Source of the DNA: a virus
Virus record (IMG/VR): IMGVR_UViG_3300009508_000017
Location: 1 to 59,298 of that record
Strand: one strand, 5' to 3'
DNA: 59,298 bases
Under the pieces are notes generated by a model that worked only from the letters and a program-made list of their open reading frames with translations, was not told where the DNA came from and made no database searches. This document shows positions 8,803 to 58,800 of this stretch, piece by piece (within the stretch, counting starts at the first letter, position 1; every line of letters starts with the position of its first letter). A program made the translations under genes and the position numbers.

Positions 8803-9159
8803 TTAAGCAACATCAAGTAGCGTTAGTTGCTTTTGAGAATAATCTGTTGAAGCATCTGCATGTATTATTGGATCGGGTGTGATCTCTGCTTTGATGCCGT
8901 AACATTTTATACTTGTGATAGTATCAAGGTTTACTGATCTGTAGTTCTCAGGTCCTCGTTTACCGGTCATTTCATATACAGTGAACTGACTATTGTCTAT
9001 TTTTGCTGAACCTCCAGGATTTATTCCTTTTGCATACTTACGCACGCGAGCTCTGCAGTTCATTATTCTTACATCACCATTCTTTTTGATGAATGTAACA
9101 CCGAAGATCTGGTTGCCCAGTGCTTTGATGATTTGTATTACTTTACTTCTATGTAGCAT
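8803..9159 (-). CDS. SH3-like beta-barrel phage protein
   Basis: This 118-residue protein matches the common 'SH3 beta-barrel fold' phage hypothetical. It has FGVTFIKKNGDVRIMNCRAR near residues 18-37, then FTVYEM, NYRSVNLDTITSIK. These proteins are widespread in T4-like and marine phages without a proven role. A GTATAACAAA sequence (9186-9177, minus) sits 20 nt upstream of the start and might be a -10 element, though no -35 is spaced from it. Confidence 0.65.
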   Translation of the reverse strand: MLHRSKVIQIIKALGNQIFGVTFIKKNGDVRIMNCRARVRKYAKGINPGGSAKIDNSQFTVYEMTGKRGPENYRSVNLDTITSIKCYGIKAEITPDPIIHADASTDYSQKQLTLLDVA

Positions 9160-9696: not shown

Positions 9697-9924
9697 ATGC
9701 CCAGGAACTATGCCAAAGAGTATAAAAACTACCATAAAAAGCCTAAGCAGAAAAAGCGTAGGGCTAACCGCAACACTGCCAGGGCTAAGATGGTAAAAGC
9801 TGGTAAGGCGTCAAAGGGAGATGGAAAAGACGTCCATCACAAGAACCGGAACACTAAAGACAATAGGAGTAAAAACTTAGCTGTCATCTCCAAGAGGAAG
9901 AATCGGTCTTTCAAGAGGAAGTAG
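9697..9924 (+). CDS. HNH-type endonuclease-like small protein
   Basis: I choose the ATG at 9697, giving 75 residues that begin MPRNYAKEY; the frame is open further upstream but lacks plausible sequence there. The product is very basic and contains DVHHKNRNTKDNRSKNL (about residues 49-65), the betabeta-alpha-metal signature of HNH nucleases (HH...N...N). Short single-domain proteins of this kind are common in phages as free-standing HNH genes. It is the only rightward gene here and is convergent with the RHH gene 9877-10080, overlapping its 3' end by 48 nt. Confidence 0.65.
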   Translation: MPRNYAKEYKNYHKKPKQKKRRANRNTARAKMVKAGKASKGDGKDVHHKNRNTKDNRSKNLAVISKRKNRSFKRK

Positions 9925-10080
9925 GTTTTCGATCAAAGGCGGACGCTCGAGGCAAAGTCTCACATAAGCACTAAAACTTATATGAGCTTCAAAAGCCACC
10001 TTTACATGTTTTTTATGAAATTCTTTGGGCAGAGAAATATTCACACGAATCTGGGCGCATTTATCGTTTCTTTTTAACAT
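9877..10080 (-). CDS. Ribbon-helix-helix regulator A
   Basis: Within 67 residues, QIRVNISLPKEFHKKHVKVAFE AHISFSAYVRLCLE (about residues 9-44) fits an Arc/CopG ribbon-helix-helix fold: a beta strand, then helix A, then helix B. The C-terminus is Pro/Leu-rich. The ATG is immediately downstream of an inverted pair of AATATTGTTT/AGAAACAATA boxes (10081-10107), so autoregulation is likely. I infer that it binds the box array up to 10379 and takes part in the lysis-lysogeny decision. Confidence 0.65.
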   Translation of the reverse strand: MLKRNDKCAQIRVNISLPKEFHKKHVKVAFEAHISFSAYVRLCLERPPLIENLLPLERPILPLGDDS

Positions 10081-10379
10081 AATATTGTTTTTTATGGAGA
10101 AACAATAAGGTTTTTGGCAACCCCAAACCGCTGTTTTTCAGCAGTTTACGCACCAAGTACGCACTTAAATATTGTTTCTTGTTTTTTTTTAGTACTAAGC
10201 GTACAACAGAGAATTTACAATCACATTCCCCTACCTCCTCTTTTTATTATTATTATTATTATATTCATACATAAAAAAAAACAAGAAACAATATATGGCC
10301 TCTTGAGCCTTTGAATACCAACGACTTATGGAATATTGTTTTTCCTGAGAAACAATATTTTTGGACGAGAAACAATATT
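10081..10379. promoter_or_regulatory. Operator array of AATATTGTTTCT boxes
   Basis: There are seven copies of the box AATATTGTTTCT or its complement, some truncated. They lie at 10081-10090(+), 10098-10107(-), 10168-10179(+), 10284-10294(-), 10332-10341(+), 10348-10359(-) and 10368-10379(-). Three sets form inverted pairs. There is no gene of convincing length in this 358-nt gap. Such clustered palindromic boxes beside RHH genes are typical of cooperative repressor operators. Confidence 0.65.
10169..10294. repeat. 23-bp perfect inverted repeat with an 80-nt spacer
   Basis: Positions 10169-10191 and 10272-10294 are perfect reverse complements. Each arm contains one AATATTGTTTCT-type box plus a run of nine T or A. 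The spacer holds a TTATTATTATT tract. It could be a large operator pair supporting DNA looping, or a cruciform or long transcript hairpin. Confidence 0.75.
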
Positions 10380-10385
10380 TTGACC

Positions 10386-10416
10386 AAAAAAAAAGCTACC
10401 CTTGTGAGGTAGCTTT
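10386..10416 (-). terminator. Rho-independent terminator after RHH regulator B
   Basis: On the minus strand, AAAGCTACC (10416-10408), a 7-nt loop, GGTAGCTTT (10400-10392) and a T-run. The perfect 9-bp stem lies 23 nt past the stop of gene 10439-10690 and separates that gene from the box array. Confidence 0.85.
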
Positions 10417-10438
10417 GCCTAAATGTATAGAGCAAACG

Positions 10439-10690
10439 TTAGGCACGTTTAGTTAACAGGGCCTCCATTTCTTCTTTTAATTTCCGTACTTGAGCTAATT
10501 CTTGCTCAAGGACAGTCATGTCTAGTTCGCTTTGAAGAACTTCCTTGGTTCTTTTTTCCAGTTCAGCGACTATTCCCGACCTGATTATTTCGGACAGTGT
10601 CTTGTGTGACTTCTGCGATATATCGATTAACCTGTCATATAGGGGCTTGTCCAGCCGTACAGCACAAGTTACGTTTTTTACTTCATTCAT
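10439..10690 (-). CDS. Ribbon-helix-helix regulator B with coiled-coil tail
   Basis: This 83-residue protein has an N-terminal RHH domain (VTCAVRLDKPLYDRLIDISQ, then KTLSEIIRSGIVAELEKR, residues about 7-47) followed by a C-terminal amphipathic coiled coil (residues about 50-80). The coil suggests higher-order assembly. It has its own promoter (TTGACA-17-TAATGT) and terminator, so it is a stand-alone regulatory unit. Two ATTAGGGT direct repeats (10704-10711, 10729-10736) overlap the promoter and are candidate operators. A repressor role in lysogeny is inferred. Confidence 0.72.
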   Translation of the reverse strand: MNEVKNVTCAVRLDKPLYDRLIDISQKSHKTLSEIIRSGIVAELEKRTKEVLQSELDMTVLEQELAQVRKLKEEMEALLTKRA

Positions 10691-10703
10691 GTGTTATATA
10701 GAT

Positions 10704-10755
10704 ATTAGGGTTCCTTGAATAGCTCAACATTAGGGTAAAGTTTACACACTGTCAA
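10704..10755 (-). promoter_or_regulatory. Promoter and direct-repeat operator of RHH regulator B
   Basis: Minus strand: TTGACA (10755-10750), a 17-nt spacer and TAATGT (10732-10727). ATTAGGGT occurs twice as a direct repeat, 25 bp apart (10704-10711 and 10729-10736); the second overlaps the -10. This is the best consensus -35 in the control region. Confidence 0.65.
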
Positions 10756-10844
10756 CTCATGTTATGCATAAAAACGACACATAAATAGCTTACTGCTTAC
10801 ACACCAACGACTTAACGTTTATAAAAAAAACCACTTATTCATTC

Positions 10845-10873
10845 TTGCACCCCAATGTATTACATAGTATAAC
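10845..10873 (+). promoter_or_regulatory. Sigma-70-like rightward early promoter
   Basis: TTGCAC (10845-10850), a 17-nt spacer and TATAAC (10868-10873). The predicted start of transcription is about 10880, which is the A of the ATG of the next gene, so the transcript may be leaderless. It faces into the replication module and diverges from regulator B. Confidence 0.65.
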
Positions 10874-10879
10874 AAAACT

Positions 10880-11044
10880 ATGCACTCAGGAGACCCTAAG
10901 AAAGAACTACACAGGCAAGTCAATGTAAGACTAAGTTCAGAGTTGTTTTCAGAGGTAAGTAAGTTAGCTGACTCTGTCACTAGTTCCGTTTCTCAAATCA
11001 TACGAGAAGCTTTGATAAGGTACATCAATGGTAGGAAAAAGTAA
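10880..11044 (+). CDS. Ribbon-helix-helix regulator C, 54 aa
   Basis: ATG at 10880, TAA at 11042-11044. The product has a short polar lead (MHSGDPKKELHR), a strand QVNVRLS and two helices ELFSEVSKLADSV and VSQIIREALIRYIN, a textbook RHH pattern. It is the first gene after the rightward promoter and overlaps the next gene by 17 nt. With only about 6 nt between the -10 and the ATG it may be translated from a leaderless transcript. Its position suggests a Cro-like role, which is inference. Confidence 0.65.
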   Translation: MHSGDPKKELHRQVNVRLSSELFSEVSKLADSVTSSVSQIIREALIRYINGRKK

Positions 11045-11246
11045 GCCCGACGCCGAATCCCTTACGGCTTTCTTCGTTCTCGATGTTCTTACCCCATTGA
11101 GGAAACTCTATAATATAGCGTCCAAAGAGACCTGGCGTAAGCTCAGAGCCCAAGGCCTGAAGACCTACAAGGTAAGTGGGTTGGGTGTATGTATTAGACC
11201 ATCCGAACTCAAGCTCTATTTAGATGAGGCCTCTATACAGGAATGA
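11028..11246 (+). CDS. Small excisionase/MerR-like HTH protein
   Basis: In this 72-residue protein, NIASKETWRKLRAQGLKTYKV near residues 29-49, followed by IRPSELKLYLDE, matches the winged-helix layout of excisionase/HTH_17 proteins. The last part is the typical 'DLxxWL' helix. It could be the recombination directionality factor for the integrase or another DNA-binding regulator. It overlaps RHH C upstream by 17 nt and the resolvase downstream by 4 nt. Confidence 0.55.
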   Translation: MVGKSKPDAESLTAFFVLDVLTPLRKLYNIASKETWRKLRAQGLKTYKVSGLGVCIRPSELKLYLDEASIQE

Positions 11247-11680
11247 AAAGCTGTATTTTAGCCGTAGATCCAGGGGTTTCTGGAGGCATGGCGTATTACC
11301 GGGACGGGGAGATAACTCTTCGAAAGTTCACCGACGAAGACGAATTCATAAGTTACGTAAAATCGCATGGAGAATGCGAGCAAGCAGTCGTAGAACATGT
11401 ACCGAAGTATATAGGGAATCAGATGATGGCCTCTCACAGCTTTACACTGGGGTACAACATGGGTTTCGAAGTTGGAGCGATCAAGGGCTTGGATATACCG
11501 GTGGACCTCGTTCGCCCTCAGAAATGGCAAGGCTCGATTCCTGGACTGAAGGGGGTTACTGGACACAAGAGAAAGAAACTTTTAAAGGAACACGCGCAGA
11601 GACTGTATCCTGGCTTGAAGGTTACGCTAGCAACTGCGGACGCCCTACTAATTTTAAACCACTACCTAAAGATGACATGA
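11243..11680 (+). CDS. RuvC-like Holliday-junction resolvase
   Basis: This 145-residue protein fits the short phage RuvC/RNase H-fold resolvase family. Candidate metal-binding residues are D9 in AVDPGVSGG, E51 in VVEHVP and D133 in ATADALLI. PQKWQG and GHKRKK are the usual substrate-facing segments. It would cleave branched DNA before packaging or during recombination. It overlaps the upstream gene by 4 nt, and its stop overlaps the next ATG as ATGA. Confidence 0.85.
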   Translation: MKSCILAVDPGVSGGMAYYRDGEITLRKFTDEDEFISYVKSHGECEQAVVEHVPKYIGNQMMASHSFTLGYNMGFEVGAIKGLDIPVDLVRPQKWQGSIPGLKGVTGHKRKKLLKEHAQRLYPGLKVTLATADALLILNHYLKMT

Positions 11681-12046: not shown

Positions 12047-12385
12047 ATGAAATGTATTATTTGTGGTAAAAACAAGACGAACACCGTTGATTCACGTAAG
12101 AAGGAAAACTACGTACACCGCAGGAGGGAATGTCCACGTTGTGGAACAAGATTCTCTACTTCCGAGTACACCAACAAGCACATTATCGAGCTCCAAAAGT
12201 CTTATCGAGATCTCGAAGAAGAACTTGAAGGGCTTCAAGCCTGGAAAGAACTTGTGGAAAAACGTACCCACGGCTATTCGCTATGCGAAATCCCCGACCG
12301 TTCACTACAAGGGTCACCACAACTGCGATCCCGAAGTAGACGTAAGGCTGGCAGAGATGTGCGAGAAGGCGTTCGTAACGGGTGA
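12047..12385 (+). CDS. NrdR-type zinc-ribbon protein
   Basis: The N-terminus (MKCIICGK, VDSRKKEN, HRRRECPRCGTRFSTSE) is the NrdR zinc ribbon with two CxxC pairs (C3/C6 and C29/C32). The NrdR ATP-cone domain is absent. A helical/coiled segment follows (residues about 48-72). The last 40 residues read as low-quality sequence and overlap the frame that encodes a clear sigma region 4 (next entry). The true product may therefore end sooner or be joined to that domain by a frameshift. NrdR represses ribonucleotide reductase genes in bacteria; a DNA-binding role is inferred. Confidence 0.6.
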   Translation: MKCIICGKNKTNTVDSRKKENYVHRRRECPRCGTRFSTSEYTNKHIIELQKSYRDLEEELEGLQAWKELVEKRTHGYSLCEIPDRSLQGSPQLRSRSRRKAGRDVREGVRNG

Positions 12386-12572
12386 GCTTGAATGTAGAGG
12401 TTATACTCTTGAAGAGATAGGTAATTACGTTGGCATAAGTCGTGAAAGGATCCGCCAGATCCAAGACATCGCACTAAATAATCTAAGAGGTTATATAAAA
12501 CAGGCATTTGGATGGGAGTTAGATTTAAGAGATCTGCTTCGCAACACGGAGACGAACTATGACGACCTCTAA
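12251..12572 (+). CDS. Sigma-70 region 4 HTH protein, start uncertain
   Basis: YTLEEIGNYVGISRERIRQIQ, about 50 residues from the C-terminus, is a near-consensus sigma-70 region 4.2 helix-turn-helix. It is preceded by plausible sequence (RYAKSPTVHYKG, DPEVDVRLAEMCEKAF). The frame has no good ATG in the right place; TTG at 12251, shortly after GGAAAG, is one candidate. The other possibility is a +1 frameshift from the zinc-ribbon frame, giving one zinc-ribbon/coiled-coil/sigma-4 protein. It would recruit or redirect host RNA polymerase. Its 3' end overlaps the helicase start by 14 nt. Confidence 0.6.
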
Positions 12573-16639: not shown

Positions 16640-16867
16640 ATGAGACCAGAAAAAAAAGCAAAAGCTTTTAAAAAAGTTCACGAACTTAGCAAGAACGTGG
16701 GCATAAGTAGAGCAGTAAAAGCTGTCGGTGGCGTCAGTCGCTATGGCTATTATAAGTGGTTAACCCGCCACGGCTTGAAACCTATATCACGATTTAATTT
16801 ACAGCATGACCAAGAAGACCAAGAAGAAACCAATAGTCTGCGCATTCGACACGGAGACGGAGTATGA
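16640..16867 (+). CDS. Small HTH-like protein upstream of polA
   Basis: A 75-residue basic protein. Residues about 18-42 (SKNVGISRAVKAVGGVSRYGYYKWL) look like a simple helix-turn-helix of the kind found in transposase or regulator N-termini. Its 3' end overlaps the polA start by 62 nt, and the last 20 residues may be only shadow. The gene is plausible but not certain. Confidence 0.45.
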   Translation: MRPEKKAKAFKKVHELSKNVGISRAVKAVGGVSRYGYYKWLTRHGLKPISRFNLQHDQEDQEETNSLRIRHGDGV

Positions 16868-21437: not shown

Positions 21438-21856
21438 TAAATATCTCTCACAATTTAATTCAAGGTGTAAGATACGAGCATCTTTTCGTAGCCGAAGCCT
21501 TAGGAAAAGAAATGGTACCGTCTCAACCGGTCGTTGCCATGCCCTGGGATTATCTAGTAACTCGGCTAGATAATCTCCAGACATTACGGGTACAAGTAAA
21601 AGGAACGAGGTGTCAGTTAAAAAACAACGGTTGCACTCGTTTTCAAATAACTGCAAAAACAGGTAGTTCTAAAACAGAAATGGTAGACTCGAGGGTAGTG
21701 GATGTCCTTAGTTGCTACGTAGAACCTTACAAGTGTTGGTACAATATTCCAATGACTGCATTGAAGGGAAAGGCAATCTGGCTTTATCCACAAAATAACT
21801 CTAGCAAAGGCCAATATGAATGTTGGCGCCATGACTGGTCATTTTTTAGAACTTAA
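21413..21856 (+). CDS. PD-(D/E)XK nuclease-like protein
   Basis: This 147-residue protein has a pattern of small PD-(D/E)XK endonucleases: YEHLFVAEALGKE near residue 20 (E), MPWDYLV near 45 (D) and LRVQVKG near 59 (the E/Q-x-K strand). The variant Gln in place of Glu occurs in the intron-endonuclease-like group. It could be a Holliday-junction-type or host-DNA nuclease. It is convergent with the integrase and overlaps its 3' end by 4 nt. Confidence 0.6.
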   Translation: MGDKESHIVNISHNLIQGVRYEHLFVAEALGKEMVPSQPVVAMPWDYLVTRLDNLQTLRVQVKGTRCQLKNNGCTRFQITAKTGSSKTEMVDSRVVDVLSCYVEPYKCWYNIPMTALKGKAIWLYPQNNSSKGQYECWRHDWSFFRT

Positions 21857-22989
21857 GCCCAGCGCTTAATTATCTTATCTGACAGTATGATATCTGCGTA
21901 ACTGTCGCTAGTAGTCTGAGGATTTGAATGCCTCAAACATTTCTGAGCTTTATACAGCGAATCAGTTGTCGCTAAAAAAGCACCATAGAGTTTACGACAT
22001 TCGTGTAATGGTGAATTCCTCGTCCAGCCCAAAGCCCTAAGATCAGCGATCAGAGGTTCGAAGGCAGTGTCTATTGTCTTAAAAGTATCGAGATTACAGT
22101 TAATAAGGTAGTCGATTCCGTCTGCTCTAGCATAAACTCTTTGAGCCCATTTTGCTGTTAGATGGGTAGACCCCGACTTCCCTTTTGGATCAAACTTTTT
22201 ATCGGGTTTAATTTTTATTATGTTCTGTTCATCTCCCGACAGATCAAACCATTCTCTACGGCAGTGAGCGATCTCACTCCTTCTCATACCTCCATGCAAA
22301 GCTAGAGCCAACATGGTAAATTTAACATTACACTTTAAATTTGCAAGGTAGTCGTGCGTATCAAGAATTAACTTTTCGGAAGGCAGTGTGTAGAAAATCT
22401 GTACCTTTTTAAACTTCTTAAGTGCTTGCATGTTTGGAACCCAGCTCATGTCTAAGTCTTTATAAATAGGCATTGCTTCTTCGGACACCAGAGACCTTGC
22501 ATTAGTAAGTACAGAATTGATTGTTCGTTTCCTTGCAAGGATGTCTTCTTCTTCTTCAACACCGTCAAGCATCTTCCTAGTGTAAGAAACATAGCAAGCG
22601 TTCCAGTTGATTGCACAGCTGGGGTTTTTCTTACCCAGACCCACCTTCACTAATCGTCTTATGGCGCTTGCATATGAAGAGACAGTCCTAGGTTTTTTTT
22701 CAAGGATGTCCTTATTTGCTTCAAAAACTTTAATTAACTCCTCTACAGTAGGAACGTTTCCATAGTGGATTTTATTAGGATTAAACTTGGCAACCGCGTC
22801 TTCTATTTTGTTGAAGACACAGAACGCATCTATTTGATCTGCTAATGTTTTTGCAGTAGATAGCAGAGGTCCTAAATTGAAATAATATTGTTTTCCGTTT
22901 TTCTTTTTTCTAAAGTTCCAGTATTTTTGATCTTCACTGGTTTTAAATATTCTATTGTTCCTTGGAGTGGTCTTTCTTATGTAACCCAT
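21853..22989 (-). CDS. int: Tyrosine-recombinase integrase
   Basis: A 378-residue integrase with the full catalytic set: R236 in GGMRRSE, a Lys near 264-271, H329-x-x-R332 in LHECR, H354 in LRHSNPQTT and the nucleophile Y364 in DSYAD. The N-terminal 90 residues form the arm-binding region and residues 75-185 the SAM-like core-binding domain. It recombines attP (23094-23150) with a host tRNA-Tyr gene. It is transcribed away from attP from a TTGGCC-17-TATAAC promoter (23033-23005), the usual int-attP arrangement. Confidence 0.93.
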   Translation of the reverse strand: MGYIRKTTPRNNRIFKTSEDQKYWNFRKKKNGKQYYFNLGPLLSTAKTLADQIDAFCVFNKIEDAVAKFNPNKIHYGNVPTVEELIKVFEANKDILEKKPRTVSSYASAIRRLVKVGLGKKNPSCAINWNACYVSYTRKMLDGVEEEEDILARKRTINSVLTNARSLVSEEAMPIYKDLDMSWVPNMQALKKFKKVQIFYTLPSEKLILDTHDYLANLKCNVKFTMLALALHGGMRRSEIAHCRREWFDLSGDEQNIIKIKPDKKFDPKGKSGSTHLTAKWAQRVYARADGIDYLINCNLDTFKTIDTAFEPLIADLRALGWTRNSPLHECRKLYGAFLATTDSLYKAQKCLRHSNPQTTSDSYADIILSDKIIKRWA

Positions 22990-23004
22990 TATTAACTCTT
23001 TTAC

Positions 23005-23033
23005 GTTATACAGTAATAGACCATATTGGCCAA
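23005..23033 (-). promoter_or_regulatory. Integrase promoter
   Basis: Minus strand: TTGGCC (23033-23028), a 17-nt spacer and TATAAC (23010-23005), with the int ATG about 16 nt downstream. It lies inside the left arm of attP, so integrase or an accessory factor bound there could autoregulate it. Confidence 0.55.
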
Positions 23034-23093
23034 TATACTTTAATTGTCAACTCCTTAGCGTATAACAACACTATATATTGTGGTATCATATCA

Positions 23094-23150
23094 GACTGTA
23101 AATCCGCCCGCTTCGCGCGTTCGTCGGTTCGAATCCGACCCCTACCACCA
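23094..23150 (+). other. attP core: 3' half of a tRNA-Tyr (GTA) gene
   Basis: From the anticodon loop (CTGTAAA) the sequence runs through a class II variable arm, a perfect T stem-loop (GTCGG TTCGAAT CCGAC), the acceptor 3' strand CCCTACC and the discriminator A plus CCA. The matching 5' half (GGTAGGG, D arm) is absent and the upstream anticodon-stem strand does not pair, so this is not a functional tRNA gene. It is the identity block that would restore the host tRNA on integration. GTATAAC motifs flank it on both sides. Confidence 0.85.
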
Positions 23151-23253
23151 TTCTTTAAGTCTTGTTAATTAATGACTTGCAGTAAGGGTGACATTGTTAT
23201 ACATTAAGTTATACGTTATTTAAATAACCCTTTTGTAACCTTTAAATTTAAGT

Positions 23254-23505
23254 ATGAAAGATTGGCTAGATACTCAGAACAGAATAGAAAAAGACCTATT
23301 AATAGAGTTAGGCAGGCAGTGTAGAGACCTACTTGACCTATTAATGCCTCAAATTAGATTGGCTGCTTTAGAGAACGATAATAAAACCTCGGTGACGATT
23401 AACCTAGACTTTGATTTAAGTTCTGGAGTTGCAGTTAAAGGGGAAGGCTCTGTTACTTTTCCGGCCAAAAAAGCCACTATTGAACTTGAGCTGTCTGAAG
23501 AGTGA
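23254..23505 (+). CDS. Unknown small protein, 83 aa
   Basis: The N-terminal half is helical (MKDWLDTQNRIEKDLLIELG) and the C-terminal half is beta-rich (SVTINLDFDLSSGVAVKGEG). I do not recognise it. Its TGA overlaps the GTG start of the next gene, so the two form a coupled pair facing into the convergent virion operon. Confidence 0.55.
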   Translation: MKDWLDTQNRIEKDLLIELGRQCRDLLDLLMPQIRLAALENDNKTSVTINLDFDLSSGVAVKGEGSVTFPAKKATIELELSEE

Positions 23506-23846
23506 GTCGAGTTCTAAAAAAAATAGGTTTAACTAGGCAAGAGGTTCGTGACACGATTGGTTTTCCTCAAGAACCTTCTGTAGACGGGTGTCGAATTGTT
23601 ACTAATAATTATCTTTGCGGAACCGATCAAAAAAGAATACGTCGAAGGATGAAAGAATATACGCCATATGTTGTAGCAAGATATCTCGAAGGCTGGCATC
23701 CTGGAACGATATCCAGACTGTTAGGTGTTTCAGAAGAATCGGTCAGAGGTACTTTAAGGAAAACAAAGGTCTTTAATAAAAAGAAACCTGGACGTCCTCC
23801 TAAGTCAGAGTCTTCCCTTCAAGGAAGCCAATCGAAAGGTCGGTAA
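23502..23846 (+). CDS. HTH protein with AT-hook-like tail
   Basis: A 114-residue basic protein, GTG start overlapping the previous stop. Residues about 63-88 (RYLEGWHPGTISRLLGVSEESVRGTLR) form a helix-turn-helix, and KKPGRPPKS near 95-103 is a GRP AT-hook-like motif. It could be a late-gene regulator or a small-terminase-like DNA-recognition protein; nothing in the sequence decides. Its 3' end overlaps the end of the nozzle-like gene by 47 nt on the opposite strand. Confidence 0.55.
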   Translation: MSRVLKKIGLTRQEVRDTIGFPQEPSVDGCRIVTNNYLCGTDQKRIRRRMKEYTPYVVARYLEGWHPGTISRLLGVSEESVRGTLRKTKVFNKKKPGRPPKSESSLQGSQSKGR

Positions 23847-47778: not shown

Positions 47779-49821
47779 TTATACCCTTTGTTGAAATTGA
47801 TTTTGACCTTGAGGATTGCTGTTACCCATACCTTGAACTTGAGCATCTACTCCGTTTTTGGCTTCAGGAACTTGCCCTCCACCTGAGCTTTCACCCGATC
47901 CACCTTGAGCGTCAGCCATAAGCTTGGCTTGTTCTGCTTGTTGTTGTGGATCTGCTGGAGCTTCCTGAGGCAATAGTTCGTCTGAATTTTCGAATCCCAT
48001 AGCATCTAGTATGCGTTTTAACATAGGTCTGACAAACGGTCGTATTTCCGGAGGGTAGTTAAAAAAGCGTTCTTGTACTTGAAGTGCTAGGTTTGCTTTT
48101 TCTATAGCCCTCTGCCCTTGGTCCTGAGATAAAACGACTATGGCATTAATTTCTAGCTTTCTTGCCATTTCTGGAGTCATTGTTGCAAGGGCGGAAACCT
48201 CTCCTTCCATGTATTCAAACACTTCTTCCTGATCCATCGTGGCTATCGAAAGTTTGACCATCTTGGTTAGGTGGTTTTCTAAACCCTTGACTATACGTCT
48301 CATCCAACGTCTTCCTATTTTGGAAGCTTCGTTGAGAGTCGCTTCGACACCTGTAGCCGTGTTGGCCGGAGCAAGAGCTTGATAATCGCCTTGCGCAAGA
48401 TTACTGACACCCAGCCAGAGCTGAACCATACCAAATACAAAATCAATAAGCTCTTGTGTCTTAGCGTCTGCGGCTGGTATCTGAGCAAACTCAATAAAAT
48501 CTGCAAGCTGATTTTGTTCTTTAAGTTGGAATATTTTTCCCGCATGTATCTCAATATCATCTGGCTCATCCTCTACTGCTTGGGGATGTACCGCTATAAT
48601 AGGGTTAGCTGACATCTCGTTTCTATAGGATTCGCTGTTGAATTGACGGTCTATATACTCCTGATAAATGTTTATTTTTTCAGGTAAACTTGGACCCCAC
48701 CAGTTATTTTTAGCTTTTCCGATAGCAACAGCTGTAAAAGGTATTCTATTGTCTGGAGTTACTTTAGCTACATATTCGTAAAAAATTGCAGTCTTTGACT
48801 CTGGCTCAATAAAAAGGCAGAAATCTTGAGGCACTCCTGTTCCAAGGACATCTCTTTTTATCCAACATTCAACCACTTGAATCTTTGGATTTTTTAAATT
48901 GTCAAAACTAAGGTCTTCTTTGTAATTTTCGTTAGCTTCAGACTTAGTTCTACCATTAGCATCTTTTTTAATAATTGCTAAGAATTTTTCGAAATCAAAC
49001 CACCCTCTTTCAAGGAACATTTCTTGAGCCCAACCCGTGTCTTTGTCATACAATTCGGCAATAAAATCAGCATCCTCGATGTCTTCAACATTTGAAGGTG
49101 CTAAAAACCTATCGCTGTCAATAATCCTAGATCTTGGGCCAGAGTATTTAACTTCTCTTGCAGGAACGCCTTGTGGGAAGTCTTCAAAAGTATGAACATT
49201 AGGGTCTAAGAAAAAAGAAGGGTCATCTACTAAAGATAAAGTAGGAGTTCCGTCAGGTCCCATAGCTTGTTGAAACTGTGCGTTTCCTTCAACTACTGGG
49301 CCCATTCCAGGTAACATCTCGAAGTCTCCGTCTGCATTATTAAATAACGCTTTTTTATCAAAGTCTAGCCATTCAGAAACGACTTCTTCATATGTGACTT
49401 TAAGAATAGCTGCCCTTTGAATAAAAAGATGCATATAGCATTCCTCTAGACGCTCTCTCGTCTTGGCCATCTTCTCCAACTTCCAATGGAAGTACTTGTC
49501 AAACATATCAGCCATTCCTTGGTCTTGAGCTCCCTGAGGAACAAACTTAAAATAAGGAGACGTTCCAGTTATTTCGTCTTCTGCCCTAGCTAAGAAATGG
49601 TCTACTACTAAACTAGTTAAAGGTATCGGAACATTAGAACGATCGTAAATAGAATCATTATTTGCTCTGTCATTCCTTTCATTGTTGTAAACATTCCATG
49701 CACCCTTATCTACATCGATTCGCTCTTTGTTGTCTGTCTTGAGCTGTTCTATTCTGTCGCATGCATATTCAACAAGTTCTTTTTCCTGTTCTTCGTTTAG
49801 TATAAAATTAGTTGATTTCAT
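47779..49821 (-). CDS. Portal protein
   Basis: A 680-residue protein of podoviral portal type. It has an N-terminal helical part with VPIPLTSLVVDHFLARAEDE (about 64-83), a central wing with NNWWGPSLPEKINIYQEYIDRQFN (about 365-388) and a C-terminal Gln/Pro-rich tail. It forms the dodecameric gate for DNA packaging. Its ATG overlaps the giant gene's stop (TAATG). No terminase gene is next to it, which is unusual. Confidence 0.8.
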   Translation of the reverse strand: MKSTNFILNEEQEKELVEYACDRIEQLKTDNKERIDVDKGAWNVYNNERNDRANNDSIYDRSNVPIPLTSLVVDHFLARAEDEITGTSPYFKFVPQGAQDQGMADMFDKYFHWKLEKMAKTRERLEECYMHLFIQRAAILKVTYEEVVSEWLDFDKKALFNNADGDFEMLPGMGPVVEGNAQFQQAMGPDGTPTLSLVDDPSFFLDPNVHTFEDFPQGVPAREVKYSGPRSRIIDSDRFLAPSNVEDIEDADFIAELYDKDTGWAQEMFLERGWFDFEKFLAIIKKDANGRTKSEANENYKEDLSFDNLKNPKIQVVECWIKRDVLGTGVPQDFCLFIEPESKTAIFYEYVAKVTPDNRIPFTAVAIGKAKNNWWGPSLPEKINIYQEYIDRQFNSESYRNEMSANPIIAVHPQAVEDEPDDIEIHAGKIFQLKEQNQLADFIEFAQIPAADAKTQELIDFVFGMVQLWLGVSNLAQGDYQALAPANTATGVEATLNEASKIGRRWMRRIVKGLENHLTKMVKLSIATMDQEEVFEYMEGEVSALATMTPEMARKLEINAIVVLSQDQGQRAIEKANLALQVQERFFNYPPEIRPFVRPMLKRILDAMGFENSDELLPQEAPADPQQQAEQAKLMADAQGGSGESSGGGQVPEAKNGVDAQVQGMGNSNPQGQNQFQQRV

Positions 49822-52800
49822 TATAGTGCGATTCCCATATCTCTTGCCATGCCGATAGAGCGACGTTGTATATTATCACGCATATCCTCGAGTTTATCCA
49901 TCTGTTGTATTATGCGTTCGTCCTTTTGGTCTTGTTTTTCAAGAGCTTCTCTTCTCCTTCTGTACATCTTCATTGCATTTTCACTAGCTTCAAAAGCTTT
50001 AATTATCTTTAAGTAGTGCGAGTTAGATTTTAAGAATTGCGCCTTGTCTGCAGGATCCATGGAATCTAGAGATGACTTTGCTTGTTGGGCTCTGGTTTTT
50101 AGCGAGTTGTATTCGTTGTATGTTTTAAAAGAAGAGCCTCTCATCTTAACTATACCTTTTACTACAGGAAGCTGCATTTCTTGAGGATCATCAGTAAACA
50201 TGTTTAATGTACTCATGAACCCTGTGGCTAAAGAGCCTCCGAGGAAATCAGTCCACCATTGAAGTCCTGATCCACTCCAGCCTCCTCCGAGAGTAAGGGA
50301 TTCTGTTCCAACATATTTAAGAGGATCAGAAAAAGTCATCATTGAAAGTAAGTTTCCAGGGACTACGTTGTTGCCTCCGGCCGCAGAGTTGATTCCATCA
50401 GATATATTTTTATAAATCTGTGGAGTGTTCCTCTTAGATAGAATTGAGGGGGATGCAGTTTCAGATCCAGAGAATTCTTTGTATACAGTGTTTCCATTCC
50501 ACTGCTCATTCATTCCAATTTGGAACAGCCCTTGAAGCGCTGGAACGGGGACAGATTCAGACAGACTGGTTGGTGCATATGGAGAATAGGTCTGAGACAT
50601 AACTTTTACGAACTGTAGAGAATCTTTTACAATGTCTCTACCTCCAGTCATTAATTGCTTTGAAAGGAAGTCGCCCATAGCCCAAAGCCCATGAGGTCCA
50701 TAGCCTATGGGTACTGTTGTATGTCCAGGAGTTTTGTCATCACTGAACAGTGAGTGGGGCACGACAACACTAGTATATCTTGCGTGCTCGGAGACGTCGT
50801 CAAAATACGTGCTTTTATCGTCTTCTTCGTCATCGTCTCTACCTGTAAGAGCTCTCATCAACAAATTGTATGCAAGGCTGTATCTAATAACTTTTCCTCC
50901 AAGTACAAGAGATGACTGTAAGCCTCTCTTTTTAAGAGACTTTGCAAACACTCTATTACCTTGCACACTTGGGTTGAAGAACTGGATAAGTACTCCTAGT
51001 TGCTGAGACCAAGTACCTCTTTTATTAAAGTCTACGGTTACGTTTCTGGATGCAGGGATGAGTGTTTTTATGTCTATCCCCTCCTGAAGACCGTGCATAA
51101 TAACCCTAGCACGTAAAACATTTTCCAAAGAGGTGTTAAGGTTGTCCACAAAGGAAGTCATAACACGAATTGGTTTTACTATTTTGCCTCCCTTTCTTGG
51201 TGTTTTAGAAGCTTTTTCGTTTTGCTTCAGTAGTTCTCTTATTTCATTAAATTTATAAAAAGCAGTCTTTCCGCCCAGCTTTTTGAGAACGTGATAAGCG
51301 GCTCCCATATCTGATTTAGCTAATTGGAAAAGCGAATCATTATCCATCTCCGCATAGCCGTTTGGAGCCTTACCGTATTCGTCTAAAGATTTCTCATAAG
51401 CAAAAATATCTCCAGCATGTTTGTGGAAGTTTATTGGGTTAGCTACCTTGTTTTTTATAACCTTAAGCTCTGAATCTGAATCAAGATTAAACCAGGCATT
51501 GGTTACATCACGAAGCGGGTTCCTTAACCAAAACTCGGGACTGTAGGAAGTTCTTATCTTAGAAAGATATTTTGTAGATATGTTAACCGTTGAAAGGACT
51601 TGACCTAGCTGTTCGTAAGTCATGTTTTTAGCAGAAGAGGCAAGTAGATTCCCCTGTTCTGTGTCTGCAAACATAATGACTTTTGGCCTTCCGTCTTCTC
51701 TTACAAATAGAGCACGTCCAGAATCTAAAACCTCAGCAGAAAACTTCATCTCCTGTATGTCGAAGAGGGTTTCCCCATCGCTGTTCTCTATAAGTTTTGA
51801 GGTCATTTTTATTCCCTCTTTCGGTTCTCTGAAAAGAACATCGTAGAGCTTTCCAGCTGCGGAATCTTTGTTCTCAATTTTTGCATTAAGAAGTTCTGTA
51901 TGCACTTGATTAATTGCTTGTGCTGACTTTGCTCGTGTAGACCTAATGACAGCATCTTGATACCCTTGAGTAGTGTGAGCAAAGATAGTAAGTGGATCAG
52001 CCAGCATTGACCTACCTGTAGCGCTTTTTTGATAAACAGCTCCGTGTGGCATGTCAAAACCACGACCTTTTGCATCACCTGATCCAAGTAAGTCGTGCTG
52101 TTCTTCTTGCCTCGCATACTGATCTTCCATTCCCAAGAATCCTTGTAAGGGAAGTCTTCTAAAAGTTCCAAAATTAAGCCCCTCTATGGTGTGCAAGTCT
52201 TTGTCGTATCCTTTACTTGCTACAGTTGCGGCAGCTTCCATTCTTTCTTTAGATTTCTTGTCTAACATCTCAGCCTCGTACTGCAAATCCAGAGACTTTT
52301 TATGCATGTCAAACATCAGTTTTACTGGGTTGTTCCGATGTTTAATAAACTTTACCAAGTCTGGTTTTGTTTCAAGATCCTGAATTATCTTTTTAGCTTC
52401 CTTGTTGGACATTCCAGAGCCTGTGTCAGCTCCTTCGTCATCTACCAAAGCTTCTTTTCCTAGGTCTTGTCTGCTTTTTCTAATAGCTGCATTTGCTTGC
52501 GGTGCTACTAAAGCATACATGTAATAACCAATATCTTCCAACTCAGCTTTTGAGTCGTAAAGAGCGTCAGAGATAGGATTGATGTAAGCCCTTTGCCCTT
52601 CGTCCAGAAGGTCACCAGCAACGCCCATTTGAGAGTAGAAAGTGTCGTAAAGCCGAAGACGTTTTGCATCTTGTCCTTTTTTATCGTAACCAAGCTTTTC
52701 TATTATATGTTCTTGTGCTTGCATCCAAGGACCGAACTGTTCGACTAGTTTTCCATAAACACCTGTAAACTTTTTAGGACCTCTTTGCCCAATATTTATA

Positions 52801-55800
52801 TCAAGCTCATTTGGCGGAGTCACTGGGTTCTTGGCTTTTTCTCTCCACTCAGTGTATTTGGATGTAAAGGAAGAAGCTAGTTTACTAAGAGCGTTTAGTG
52901 AACCAGGTCGTGAGAACATTTTAGATTCGTAACTTCCTAAATAGTTATCTTGTTCGTGAGCCGTTCCTACATCCTTATCACGGTTTACACTGTCGAAACT
53001 ACCAAAAGCATCTGAGGTGTCAGAACCAGGACTCGCTTCGGGGTCTACAACTTCTCCCTCTGTATTTTCCTGTTCTGTTCCGTCTTCATTAAACCCTTGT
53101 TCGTCCACTCCCCTATTCACTTGGGCATCTTTTATTGTCTTCGCTTCTGATGCCGCCATGTCTTCTGCACTGGTTAGCTGTAGACCTCCCATATTAAATA
53201 CAGCATCTTGCAAGGCTTGTAGCTTTGCTTGCATGTATTTTGAATTGGGCTTTTTCATGTCGCCCATGATGTTGTTGTAAAACTCGTTGTCTGATTCTAA
53301 ATAGAATAGATTCTTAGCAAACTTTGATTGCATTTGTAATTGCTTGGCTTCCGCAGAAGCCATGTCCGTGTTTTCTAACTGAGAGAGAAGCTCGTTTATT
53401 GTTTCTAATCTGGCTTTATCTCCTTTTTCAAAAGAAAGGAAGCTCTCTTGTTCAGCCTGCCTGAAAGTCGATTCAATTTGAGACTCGTCATATATAATTT
53501 CCAGCCTGTAAGGAAATGCAAAAGTGGTTTCGGGCTTCTCTTTTTCGGTTTCGTTATCTTTAGATTCTTCTTGTTTACCCTCTTTATTATCCTTCTGTGC
53601 TTTTTTGTAAGCGGGCCATCTAACCTCTAAACCACCAATATTTCTAGGAGCGTTTTCTTCTTGATTTGTAAAGTCTGAGAAAGACCACTTTGAATGCTTG
53701 GAATCGCCAATGCTTTCAGATCTCTTCATGTTTTCATCAACATGGACTCGTGCATATGCGGGAAATGCTTTCCTTATTGTTTTTCCTTTGTCGTCTTTTT
53801 CAGCCGGAATCACTCCAACCTTGATGACCTGTCCGTGTCTATATTTTTTCTCTAGAGTTGCTACATAAAGACTCTCCTGTGCTTGGTTTTGAATTAAAGT
53901 ATTGATTGCGTCGATGTCTTTTTTACCAAGTCCTTTTTTTTCAGCTACTACCGGCTTCATCTTCTTTGCTTGGTCGAGCCTGAAAGAAGCAACGTAGTTT
54001 AAAAGAACTTTGGTGCTAAGAGGGATTTTAGACTCTCTGTCTGTTACAACTTGAGCGAGTCTTTCCTTTAAGTAAGCAAGTTCACGCCTAACCCCGTAGC
54101 TTTCTCTAAGTTCTTTCTTGTCTAAGAATTTAATTTGTTTTTCGAGGCTTTCTTGTGCTTTTTCTAAGGCGCCACTCTCTTCTAGCTTATTTAGTAAGAT
54201 GTCAGGTGCATGAGTGATATACTTTAATAGAGCAATCCCACCTTGAGCATCGGCGTAGTATTTATTGTGCGATCCATCGAGTAAGCCGATGTTTTTAATA
54301 CCGCCCATTTCAATAATAGCTTGCACGAGCTGGCGAGCAGTTAATTTTAGAGAAGATAGGTTTGTTATAGTTTGGGAAAGAGAAATGTCATTTCTTACTT
54401 TTCCACCAACAGTTCGGCCAACCTCTTCTTCTGGTTTTATATAGTTCGAATAAGCGTATTCACTTAGCAGGCTATTATTTACCTCTTCTGAGACCTTGTA
54501 ATACCGGCCATTTTTGCCGAGTTTTTCGAAAGAACCTTTTTCGTTAATCTTTATAATTAATTCTTTTCCCTCTTTCACTAGAGTGGTTTCCATAACTTCG
54601 TTGCCTTGGAACCATCTAAATCTCCAGTCTTTAAGGTTAGTGGATTTCCCTTCTCTAAAAGATTTTAAAACCTCGAGTTCAAGCTCAAGCTCTTTTATTC
54701 CTTCATTGACTGCCAAGGTATTTTTTCCGCTATCTTTAAGCTTTTCAATTAAAGCAATCTTACGATCCTTTATGTTTTCTACTTCACTGTGATAAATAGT
54801 TACCTTCTTAGAATCGTTATGAGCACGTTTTTTGCTTCTTGTAAAACTGGAGTGTCTTTCAAGTACTCCTACGATTTGGTTAATGTCTGCTTCTTCCCTA
54901 ACCCAACCTTGTTGAAGGTGCTGATTAAAAATTTCTTGGATATCTTTAGCTTCCTGAGAGCTGATGTCTATGTTTCTTTTAGCAGTGTATGTGTATCCAT
55001 TTATGTGGATTTTTTCTCTAGCTGCTATGATCACTGCATCGTTTCTTGCAAGAGATGCTTTTACTTCATTGACAAATTGAGTTCCAGAAACAGCTTCCTT
55101 TATATAAGCAGTTCTAGGCACCTCTAATTCTGGGTTCCAAAAGACCCTGACCTTTCCTGATTCATCTTTGGGCAGTTTTGTTCTAGTTCCCTTCAGCAGC
55201 TTGGTTCTAGATACGGGGTTAACAGTAACTTCAAGACGGCCGTCCTTGTTGTACCTTTTCTTTTCCTGAGCAATCTCTCCTTCTAAATGATTTCGGACAT
55301 CGTGGTGGATCTGTCTGTTGTCTTCAAAATTCATCTCGATAGCCCGTCTAACAACATCGGATTTTTCGCCGTGTAGATCTAAGGCCATTGGAAGTCCGGT
55401 CGATTCAGCAAGCCTACGGTTTTCCGCCTGTTGTTCGTCCCAAATCTTTTTATACGCGGGAGTGTTTAAAATTGTTTTTAGATCGTCTATCCATCTACCT
55501 TTGTACAGGATCCCTCTTCTGCTCGGTGGAAGTCTGAGATCTCCGTCAGCAAGCATTTCGACGTACTCTTTTCCGAGATCCATTGCCCAATCTAATCCGT
55601 TTGGATCGTAGTCATTAAAAGCTTGTTCCGTTTCTTTCCTCCTATTTACACGCAAGACAGTGTCAACAAGGGTGTCTATGATTTTTTTATCAGAAGTTGG
55701 GGTTAACTCTCTAACTCCTAACTTCATCCTTGCATCCGCTCCTTTTGCGGCCTGAACACTGGCAGTGTTGTAAGGATCAAACATCTTTCCGGTGGTGTAT

Positions 55801-58800
55801 CCACCTTTTAGGGCATCTTGAAAAGCCTGGTTTTTTCCACTTAATGCAATCTCTTCGTGCATTCTTTGGAGAACGTGTCTGTATTCCTGCGTGGTAATAG
55901 ACTGAGGAACGGGGCCTCCAGAAAGAAAAGTATTAATTGGACTTGTTGGATCTAGTGTAATGTCTAGCCCTTCAAGCATTCCTGCTTGGTTCTTGTATTT
56001 AGGCTGCATTGAGGATAAATCCGAGTGGCTCATCTCAAAACCATAAATTTTTTGTAGCTTAGCTAATCTTTTTGTTAAGAGTTGTAAGTTTTGTAGTGCT
56101 TCTTTCCTCGCTTCATCAGTTAGAGGAATTGTTCCCTCTTCAACTAAAGGAAAAACTTTAGATCTTACTAGGTTCTTTCCTACTCTCTGAACCCTGTAAC
56201 TAGCAGGGCTTGCATATGCTAAGATGTCAAAGGCTTTGTAAGAATTTACAGTAAAACCATCTTTAGCACTGTATAACTCTCCTCCAAAATAAAACTTTTC
56301 TCCCTTTTTAAAGAAAACATCCTTTGCAAAGTTCTTTGGAGCAACCCTTCCACTGTCTAACCCGTCTTGAATAGTATTTATACTTTCTATGAGTTCTCTT
56401 TCTGTATAAAGTGCATAATCAAGAACAAACCGGTCGGTGTTGTTGTACCTAGAACCTCCCACCATTTCTGTGTCTATTTCACCCATTCTTTCTGCTATTC
56501 TAGAATTCGTTAAATTGATAGCTAGGTGCGTTGAGGGTAGGAGTTCTGTCTTTTGTATGGAAGGTTCCGTGTCCATAATCTTCCTCCTGTCAGCTGTAGA
56601 AACTCCTAATTCTGACTCCAGGTCAGCAAATGTTACATTTTTCCTTAACTTTTTATCTTTTGTCAGGCTTCTGATAGCTTGCCATACTTTTTTAGTCTGG
56701 ATGTCGTTCTTTTTCGCAGCCAGGTTAGCAGCAGTAGTGTTAGATAGTTTAACAAGAGATTGCTTTTTACCTGGTGCTTTTTCTAAACCTAAGGCTTTGA
56801 GGATTTCTTTTTGCTTTTGCTCAAACTCAAGCATTGCTGGAAGTTTCTGCACTCTTCTTCTTCTGGAGTTCTTGTTCCTTTCAGCAAATTTTTCATATTC
56901 TGTAATCAGACCATAAACACCGTATTTCTTTTCAAGATCACTTTTCTTTTTCGGGTCATCTTTTACTTCATCGCTAAGCCTCGTATACACCCCACTCATA
57001 CGGCTAATTTTTTCTAAAAGAACCGCAGTCACAGTAGCACCTTCATCTATTTTAAAGTAAGAAGATTCTTTTGGACCGTATTGTGTTTGAATAGTCTCCC
57101 CTGCACGCATCATTGCAAGAGCACTGAGTATGCGGGCTTGATAGACGTTGTAATCCTGGCCGGTCTCACGTTGAAATTCGGCAGCGTTTTCGGGAAGCAT
57201 GTTCCAATCAAAATTGTCTGCTAGTTTAGCGAGCTCTTGTTTTCCATTTATGGTAAAAGTGCCTTTGCTTTCGCCCTTAGCATAAACAACATTTAACTTA
57301 TCAAAAGAAGCTAAATCTGAAAGTGTAATCATGTCTCCTGGCTTGCCGTCTCTACTTGCAATCCTGAGATCTCCAAAATTGATTCCTTTTAGTTTTTTGT
57401 CGTCTGGTTTAAAGTTAATGAGAACTGGAGTATTTCTTATGTCAATGAGCTCAGTTGCAGCTCCCATAGAACCTTTTACTTCTCTTATGTTTTCTACTTT
57501 CTTAACACCTGTTTCAATTCTTTCTCTAGCTCTAGCGATGTTATCTCTAGTCTTTCTGTTCTTAATCCCAGTTATCTTTTGAACTAGTGGCTTAAGATTC
57601 TCTACATCATTTATTAAAGCCTGTGCTTTTTGAACATTTTTAGAAGTCTGGCCTTTTCCACCAGGTTCTTTTACTAGCCAATCCAGTTTAGGAACAAAAC
57701 CAGTAATTTCTTCGTTAGAGTCTAACTCTTTTAACACAGGGCCGCTTAGAAACTTAGATAGAGCTTTTGAAACTTCTTCTATTTCCGTATCTTTAGAGAC
57801 CGTTAAAGTGTCTGTAAGAAAATCTTCCAACTGTCTGCCTGTGCCTAATGCGTCTTTTTCATCAAGTTTAAAATTACCAAGAGCACTCTTTAAAGAAGTT
57901 ACCGTTTTAGCGATTCCTTCAGAAGAATCTACAGTACTTTCTTCCTCCATGTCTTTGATAAGCTTTCTTTCAGCAGCAACTCCGGCTTCGAGGCTCTCCA
58001 TTTTATCCTGTAAGAGTTCGACTTTCTTACCCATTTCTTCATTGCCGTACATTTCGTAGGCTTCTTCTATTGATTTTATATCAATAGAATCTGAATCAGA
58101 AAGAGCGCCTCTAGCCCTGCTAAGGGCAGCGTCTGTTAGTGCAGTAAGGCCAGCTTTGTCTGCAACCATTTCAAAGATTTCTTCTGTAGTTACCCTTCCT
58201 TTTTTCTGAAATAGCTTTTCAACATCAGGTAGTAACTCATTTAATAGCTCTTTATCGCTAGTTTCTATGATCTTTTTCACAGCCCTATCAACGTCTTTAA
58301 AACTCTTCCCTTGTTCTTTTAGGAGTTTGTTCGTTCCTTCGATATCGGCTATTATTTTTAAATTCCTTTGCTCGGAATAGTCGACCTCTTCATTTGGGTC
58401 TGCTACCTTTTGGCCTGCTCTGTTCTTAGACGTCTTTGGTTTAAAGGTGTCTGTCTTGTTGTCATACTTTTGACCAACATTAAAATCTAGTTCTTCCTGT
58501 GCAATTCTTTCGTCAGCAGCTTGTTCATAGCCAGTTGTGGTGCTTTTGTAATCTTCTTGAAGCTGTACTGCTTCTGCAATTGAATAGATTTCGCCTTTGA
58601 AGCGTATGTCCTTTGCTCCTCTAGACTCGGTAGGAGCGGCTGCCTTGATAGCTTTCTCTAACTTTTTTTGGTTTTGTAAAGCATCTATGTAAGTACTTTC
58701 TGCAGGCTCTCCCTTTAAACCGGTAGGGTCTGTCTTTAAACTTTTGAGCTTCTGTTTTCTGTCTGACTTGGCCATCTCATTGAGGATGATCCTTTTACGA

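Follow-up and report, generated by a model that had tools for sequence, protein, structure and literature searches.

A divergent pair of ribbon-helix-helix genes as a candidate lysogeny switch in an uncultured phage clade

Genes and sites at the locus

The window, by which we mean the entire 59,298-base IMG/VR virus record, carries a compact regulatory locus between leftward early genes (rIIA/rIIB and those following) and rightward early genes (RuvC, helicase, polymerase, and primase), the position that a sequence-only reading had correctly given it. The three small ORFs which that reading had described are present: P1 on the minus strand (9877-10080, 67 aa), P2 also on the minus strand (10439-10690, 83 aa), and P3 on the plus strand (10880-11044, 54 aa). 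Its proposal that they encode three dissimilar ribbon-helix-helix (RHH) proteins holds up, through Pfam for P3 and through profiles of relatives, AlphaFold models, and Foldseek for P2 and P1, whose models retrieved almost exclusively RHH structures.

P3, a candidate autoregulator, opens the rightward early operon and is a minimal, Arc-like RHH protein with a QxNxR strand. It matches Pfam RHH_1 (E = 1.2e-5; 25.5 bits, cut-off 20.5), and its profile aligns with P22 Arc, placing QVNVR on QFNLR (E = 1.6e-4; hhalign probability 51%). Matches of the same profile to RNase HI were treated as spurious. P2, the candidate maintenance (prophage) repressor, gave only weak Pfam matches when searched alone (MatP_C RHH, 0.026; RHH_1, 0.19) and matched the PHROG "transcriptional repressor" at 3.2e-5, and its 14-row profile matched the solved RHH protein ORF56 at 1.8e-7. 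The AlphaFold monomer model of P2 (pLDDT 92) shows two helices after the N-terminal strand region and a long C-terminal helix, and its Foldseek list consists mostly of RHH folds. Profile and predicted fold both place P2 in the RHH superfamily.

P1 is the least secure of the three, with profile and model pointing to a CopG-like RHH protein. Alone, it had no family match in Pfam and PHROG searches. Compared with the P3 profile, the 6-row profile of P1 gave a match at 7e-7, and its own best PDB matches are RHH proteins (ORF56 and CopG) with sub-threshold E values. The AlphaFold model has a pLDDT of 71 overall and of 84-89 over residues 11-40, with the N-terminal strand unassigned in the monomer. 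Its Foldseek matches were CopG, Arc, and ORF56, with probabilities up to 0.99 and an E value of 0.2, which is nonsignificant, as expected for so short a domain.

P2 and P3 are divergently transcribed. By eye, a promoter-like TTGCAC-17-TATAAC (10845-10873, plus strand) ends 6 nt before the P3 ATG, so that the P3 transcript is probably leaderless. A second promoter-like site, TTGACA-17-TAATGT (10727-10755, minus strand), also recognized by eye and below the threshold of the promoter scan, precedes P2. Two ATTAGGGT repeats (10704-10711 and 10729-10736) lie in the P2 leader and promoter and are operator candidates. An intrinsic terminator (10392-10416, minus strand) directly follows P2, which is therefore probably monocistronic. 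Neither gene has beside it the toxin gene that a type II toxin-antitoxin operon would contain: the terminator comes next after P2, and downstream of P3 lie an ORF of 72 aa with no family match (11028-11246, plus strand) and then a conserved RuvC-like resolvase, named by sequence motif and position (11243-11680, plus strand); in relatives, P3 is followed by RuvC.

Two further neighbors were observed. An HNH endonuclease-like gene (9700-9924, plus strand) is a conserved companion of the locus and unusually so, at 62-82% identity, where helicase, polymerase, and primase reach about 39-50%; the G018 copy is inverted and occupies the expected place of P2. Beyond RuvC, an NrdR-like zinc-ribbon ORF (12047-12385, plus strand) overlaps a sigma-70 region-4 ORF (12063-12572, plus strand) by more than 300 nt. 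Both motifs were detected in nine loci, the window among them, and in each the sigma ORF is read in the +1 frame with respect to the zinc-ribbon ORF; in six of the nine, the sigma frame begins to be open 4 nt downstream of the zinc-ribbon ATG. This pair represents either overlapping genes or programmed +1 frameshifting.

Conservation of the locus across an uncultured clade

Relatives were drawn from viral contigs, with 80 related loci for each of three alignment queries (portal, helicase, and primase). Single-protein scans with P2, RuvC, and polymerase, by contrast, yielded no relatives. In tblastn against 50,697 phage records, portal, helicase, and P2 had 0 matches, that is, no isolated phage carried a detectable homolog of any of them, and the clade is therefore essentially uncultured. 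The window belongs to this clade of integrase-bearing, mostly marine phages. Several relatives have lengths of 67-71 kb; in G007 and G018, genes run on from one contig end into the other, so that these records are near-complete circles. Terminal repeats were looked for in the window and none were found. A second, overlapping record, 99.8-99.9% identical to the window over 7.6 and 5.3 kb, reaches 8.2 kb beyond its right end, through a terminase-like gene. At that end, the 3148-aa ORF of the window (49821-59267) is the C-terminal part of a larger protein; its counterpart in L005 has 3620 aa, in a frame that there also leaves the contig end.

The P2/P3 pair is conserved in this clade. In 13 representative loci, window included, P2 (minus) and P3 (plus) are divergent, with P3 upstream of RuvC and opening the replication operon. 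The search for the full trio among relatives thus recovered the pair, but P1 only in a minority and in another arrangement: P1-like genes occur only in the window, G015/G023/G038, L137, L130, and L136. P1 of the relatives is found beyond the HNH gene, from which it diverges, whereas the window P1 converges with the HNH gene and overlaps it, so that P1 has moved or is another gene. P1 is accessory to the locus. G039 (L211 and L291) has, divergent to P3, an ORF of 126 aa that is itself diverged; its N terminus is RHH-like, and the P2 profile did not detect the ORF.

The P2-P3 intergenic regions share short motifs. GTATAACA is present in 7 of 12 nonredundant regions (0.2 expected) and TTAGGGT in 6 of the 12 (0.26 expected). 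In L132/L133, TGYATAAC is found near P2 and again as two copies, spaced by 21 bp, that cover the P3 -35/-10; in the window, where the shared motifs are less regular, GTATAACA lies at the P3 -10. We regard these motifs as operator candidates, but they overlap the promoters, of which they may instead be elements, and promoter conservation alone could account for part of the sharing.

Between P1 and P2 lies an iteron-like array of AAACAATAT (10081-10379), whose seven copies, some in each orientation, surround an AT-rich core; the P1 gene starts inside this array. AAACAATA occurs 7 times in these approximately 290 bp, whereas none of 500 shuffles of the region had more than 4. The array also contains the 12-mer ACCAACGACTTA (10317-10328, plus strand), of which the window holds a second copy in the P2-P3 intergenic region (10803-10814), and a related 14-mer, (A)TCAACGACTTATG, is conserved in the arrays of relatives. 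Arrays were found near P3 in all lineages examined, each with its own repeat: AAACCATA in G007, G015, L129, and L289; AAAACTACA in L127; AAAACGTAA in G018; AGGGTAACA in G039; AAGCACCA in G040; CCTAACCAC in L293; and CCCAAAAG in G037, the weakest array. Since they persist in phages without P1, P2, or integrase and vary by lineage, they are best read as replication-origin iterons. A replication origin is more likely here than operators of P1 or attachment-site arms. The earlier description of each gene as lying beside its own promoter or operator-like repeats was thus right in that the repeats are real, but they are not operators specific to P1.

Two other roles for the array were considered and rejected. 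P2 appeared to be a possible binder, because the D-to-N change in the window P2 at a predicted DNA-facing strand residue seemed to track the change from AAACCATA to AAACAATA; L127, however, has D together with AAACTACA, and phages without P2 keep their arrays. A role as attP arm sites of the integrase was set aside because arrays are also present in the integrase-less G037 and G040.

Integrase and the search for a CI/Cro-type repressor

The statement that the phage has an integrase is borne out by a tyrosine integrase gene (21853-22989, minus strand), whose six catalytic residues (R236, K269, H329, R332, H354, and Y364) are invariant in 11 aligned relatives. Judged from these residues, the integrase is catalytically intact, as expected of a temperate phage. 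Next to it and divergent to it lies a gene for an HTH_23-like protein (23502-23846, plus strand), which is also present in integrase-less relatives. The segment made up of the integrase and two small divergent genes (21853-23846) is inverted in the window and G041 relative to other integrase-bearing relatives. An invertible element was considered and not supported: the best flanking inverted repeat reaches only 79% over 24 nt, like other pairs in the region, and orientation follows lineage.

Our searches agree with the sequence-only reading that no CI/Cro-type repressor is visible. HTH_3 was matched in none of 11 clade records (the window and ten relatives), against 14 of 14 genomes used as positive controls, so that the window record yielded no standard repressor of this type elsewhere in its sequence either. 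Pfam scans of the small window proteins gave no classical repressor, and a by-eye reading of the ORFs listed for the 8.2-kb extension found no obvious one.

P2 was seen only together with an integrase, and no record known to lack the integrase has P2. G037, which lies near the window in the helicase tree, has neither and is the sole case of P2 absence inside the P2 clade; G018 and L293 have the integrase and lack P2. A tree-based test of P2 against integrase contained one informative independent pair only, and the association, resting on this one event, is suggestive and not statistically established. P3 is retained without a whole integrase in G037, G040, and G039 (where the integrase reads in two pieces); it is thus not specific to lysogeny and looks like an early autoregulator.

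A portal-alignment scan of one genome from each of 84,980 prokaryote species returned three MAG contigs and no clear prophage. Among contigs with portal matches, L109 (CALIKS010000014.1; portal 83% identical) belongs to a MAG titled "uncultured archaeon," and others were assigned to bins of Gammaproteobacteria and Flavobacteriales.

A proposed RHH switch, its rivals, and known systems

The explanation that we prefer, and to which we give about an even chance of being right, is an Arc/Mnt-like divergent RHH pair, with P3 as autoregulator, P2 as probable maintenance repressor, and P1 as an accessory protein. It builds on what was observed: folds by profile and model, a conserved divergent layout with motifs in common, no match to a CI/Cro-type protein, and an array in every lineage examined. 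In this reading, two divergent RHH genes would make up a regulatory region that separates the leftward from the rightward early operon. P3 most likely binds its own promoter region and damps early transcription, as Arc and Cro do. P2, transcribed leftward out of the intergenic DNA that it shares with P3, most likely keeps the rightward promoter off; it is the best candidate for the prophage repressor and, in integrase-bearing phages, would be the maintenance repressor. P1 would be an accessory RHH protein, its gene starting inside what is probably the replication origin. We infer the pairing of proteins with sites, the repression, the lysogeny, and the origin function in this scheme.

The three-protein lysogeny circuit originally suggested is not supported by the comparison with relatives: P1 is a minority gene and rearranged, P3 persists in integrase-less phages, and the array is independent of P1, P2, and integrase. 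The broader idea of a lysogeny switch fares better, since the switch-like divergent P2/P3 region is conserved, but two relatives have an integrase without P2 and no convincing prophage emerged from the one scan of prokaryote genomes. An RHH-run lysogeny switch in the clade of the window is therefore plausible, and a candidate infect-or-hide switch built without the usual repressor type is credible but unproven. That the whole tailed-phage clade would decide between lysis and lysogeny with an RHH-only divergent pair, P2 for maintenance and P3 as a Cro/Arc-like early repressor, and with no HTH repressor, is a proposal that we put forward tentatively and somewhat doubt.

P2 and P3 might instead only set the level and order of lytic transcription, with the use of the integrase, if any, controlled elsewhere. 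We consider this unlikely, while granting it a real chance. It would accommodate both the retention of P3 in G037, G040, and G039 and the integrase-bearing G018 and L293 without P2, and RIIA/RIIB with the full replication set suggest a strong lytic program; it fits less well with a P2 that has its own promoter-like site and terminator and is found only with an integrase, and with the conservation of a catalytically intact integrase in most of the P2 clade. Lysogeny could also be decided by a non-RHH regulator, for example, the HTH_23-like protein, a small HTH-like ORF (16640-16867), a WYL_2-like ORF (8803-9159), or an RNA. These ORFs are DNA-binding-like, and the first is divergent to the integrase, but it is also present in the integrase-less G037 and G040 and so does not track lysogeny, and none of the candidate genes lies at the early-operon boundary; we find such a decision quite improbable.

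Control of replication or partition by the RHH proteins, with P1 or P2 binding the array in the manner of CopG/omega-type plasmid regulators, seems to us very improbable. The array does separate P1 from P2, its 8-bp boxes stand in tandem like those of RHH box arrays, and the top structural neighbors include plasmid copy-control proteins. Against this, arrays are present without P1 and P2 in G018, G037, G039, G040, and L293, and their sequence varies by lineage while the strand residues of P2 stay constant; L127 and L132, for instance, both have (I/V)TCAVR in P2, with arrays of AAACTACA and AAACCATA, respectively. With short direct and inverted repeats clustered about an AT-rich stretch, a lineage-specific sequence, and a clade-wide presence, the array, a putative origin, resembles known iteron origins.

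For the preferred Arc/Mnt-like pair, the closest parallels come from systems in which RHH regulators of lysogeny are already known, namely, an archaeal virus and, as secondary immunity repressors, P22. In P22, mnt and arc are divergently transcribed, and the phage also has a classical C2/Cro region, of which no counterpart was found in the clade records searched. The arc and mnt genes of immI control ant (PMC2629481). The present locus shares with immI a compact, immunity-type organization around a pair of small RHH regulators. P3 has nearly the length of Arc (54 against 53 aa) and its QxNxR strand, and P2, at 83 aa and with a helix at the C terminus, is about as long as Mnt. The P2 profile did not align significantly with Mnt (probability 0.2%, E = 0.32), no ant-like Pfam match was found among the window proteins scanned, and the genes after P3 are the RuvC-like resolvase, helicase, and replication genes, so that the operon controlled here would be replication and not ant. 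With the Mnt homolog and the antirepressor missing, the locus would work like immI but is not classed as a member.

In the Sulfolobus spindle-shaped virus SSV1, the small RHH protein F55 is reported to keep the virus lysogenic through repression of the early promoters and of its own promoter (PMC5569661), showing that an RHH protein can do what we propose for P2. F55 is a single RHH protein of an archaeal virus, acting on tandem ATAGATAG boxes, whereas here two RHH genes share a divergent bacterial-type promoter region and lysogeny is putative. The layout itself recalls lambda-type cI/cro, with divergent regulators between the early operons, one of which opens the rightward operon; the regulators here are RHH proteins, with no CI/Cro-type HTH protein found. 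A switch of this kind would explain why repressor-based searches fail to recognize such phages as temperate. If the proposal is correct, an RHH-only pair placed where the main early operons meet would amount to a counterpart of cI/cro that evolved independently and would show the divergent-switch layout rebuilt with a different DNA-binding fold.
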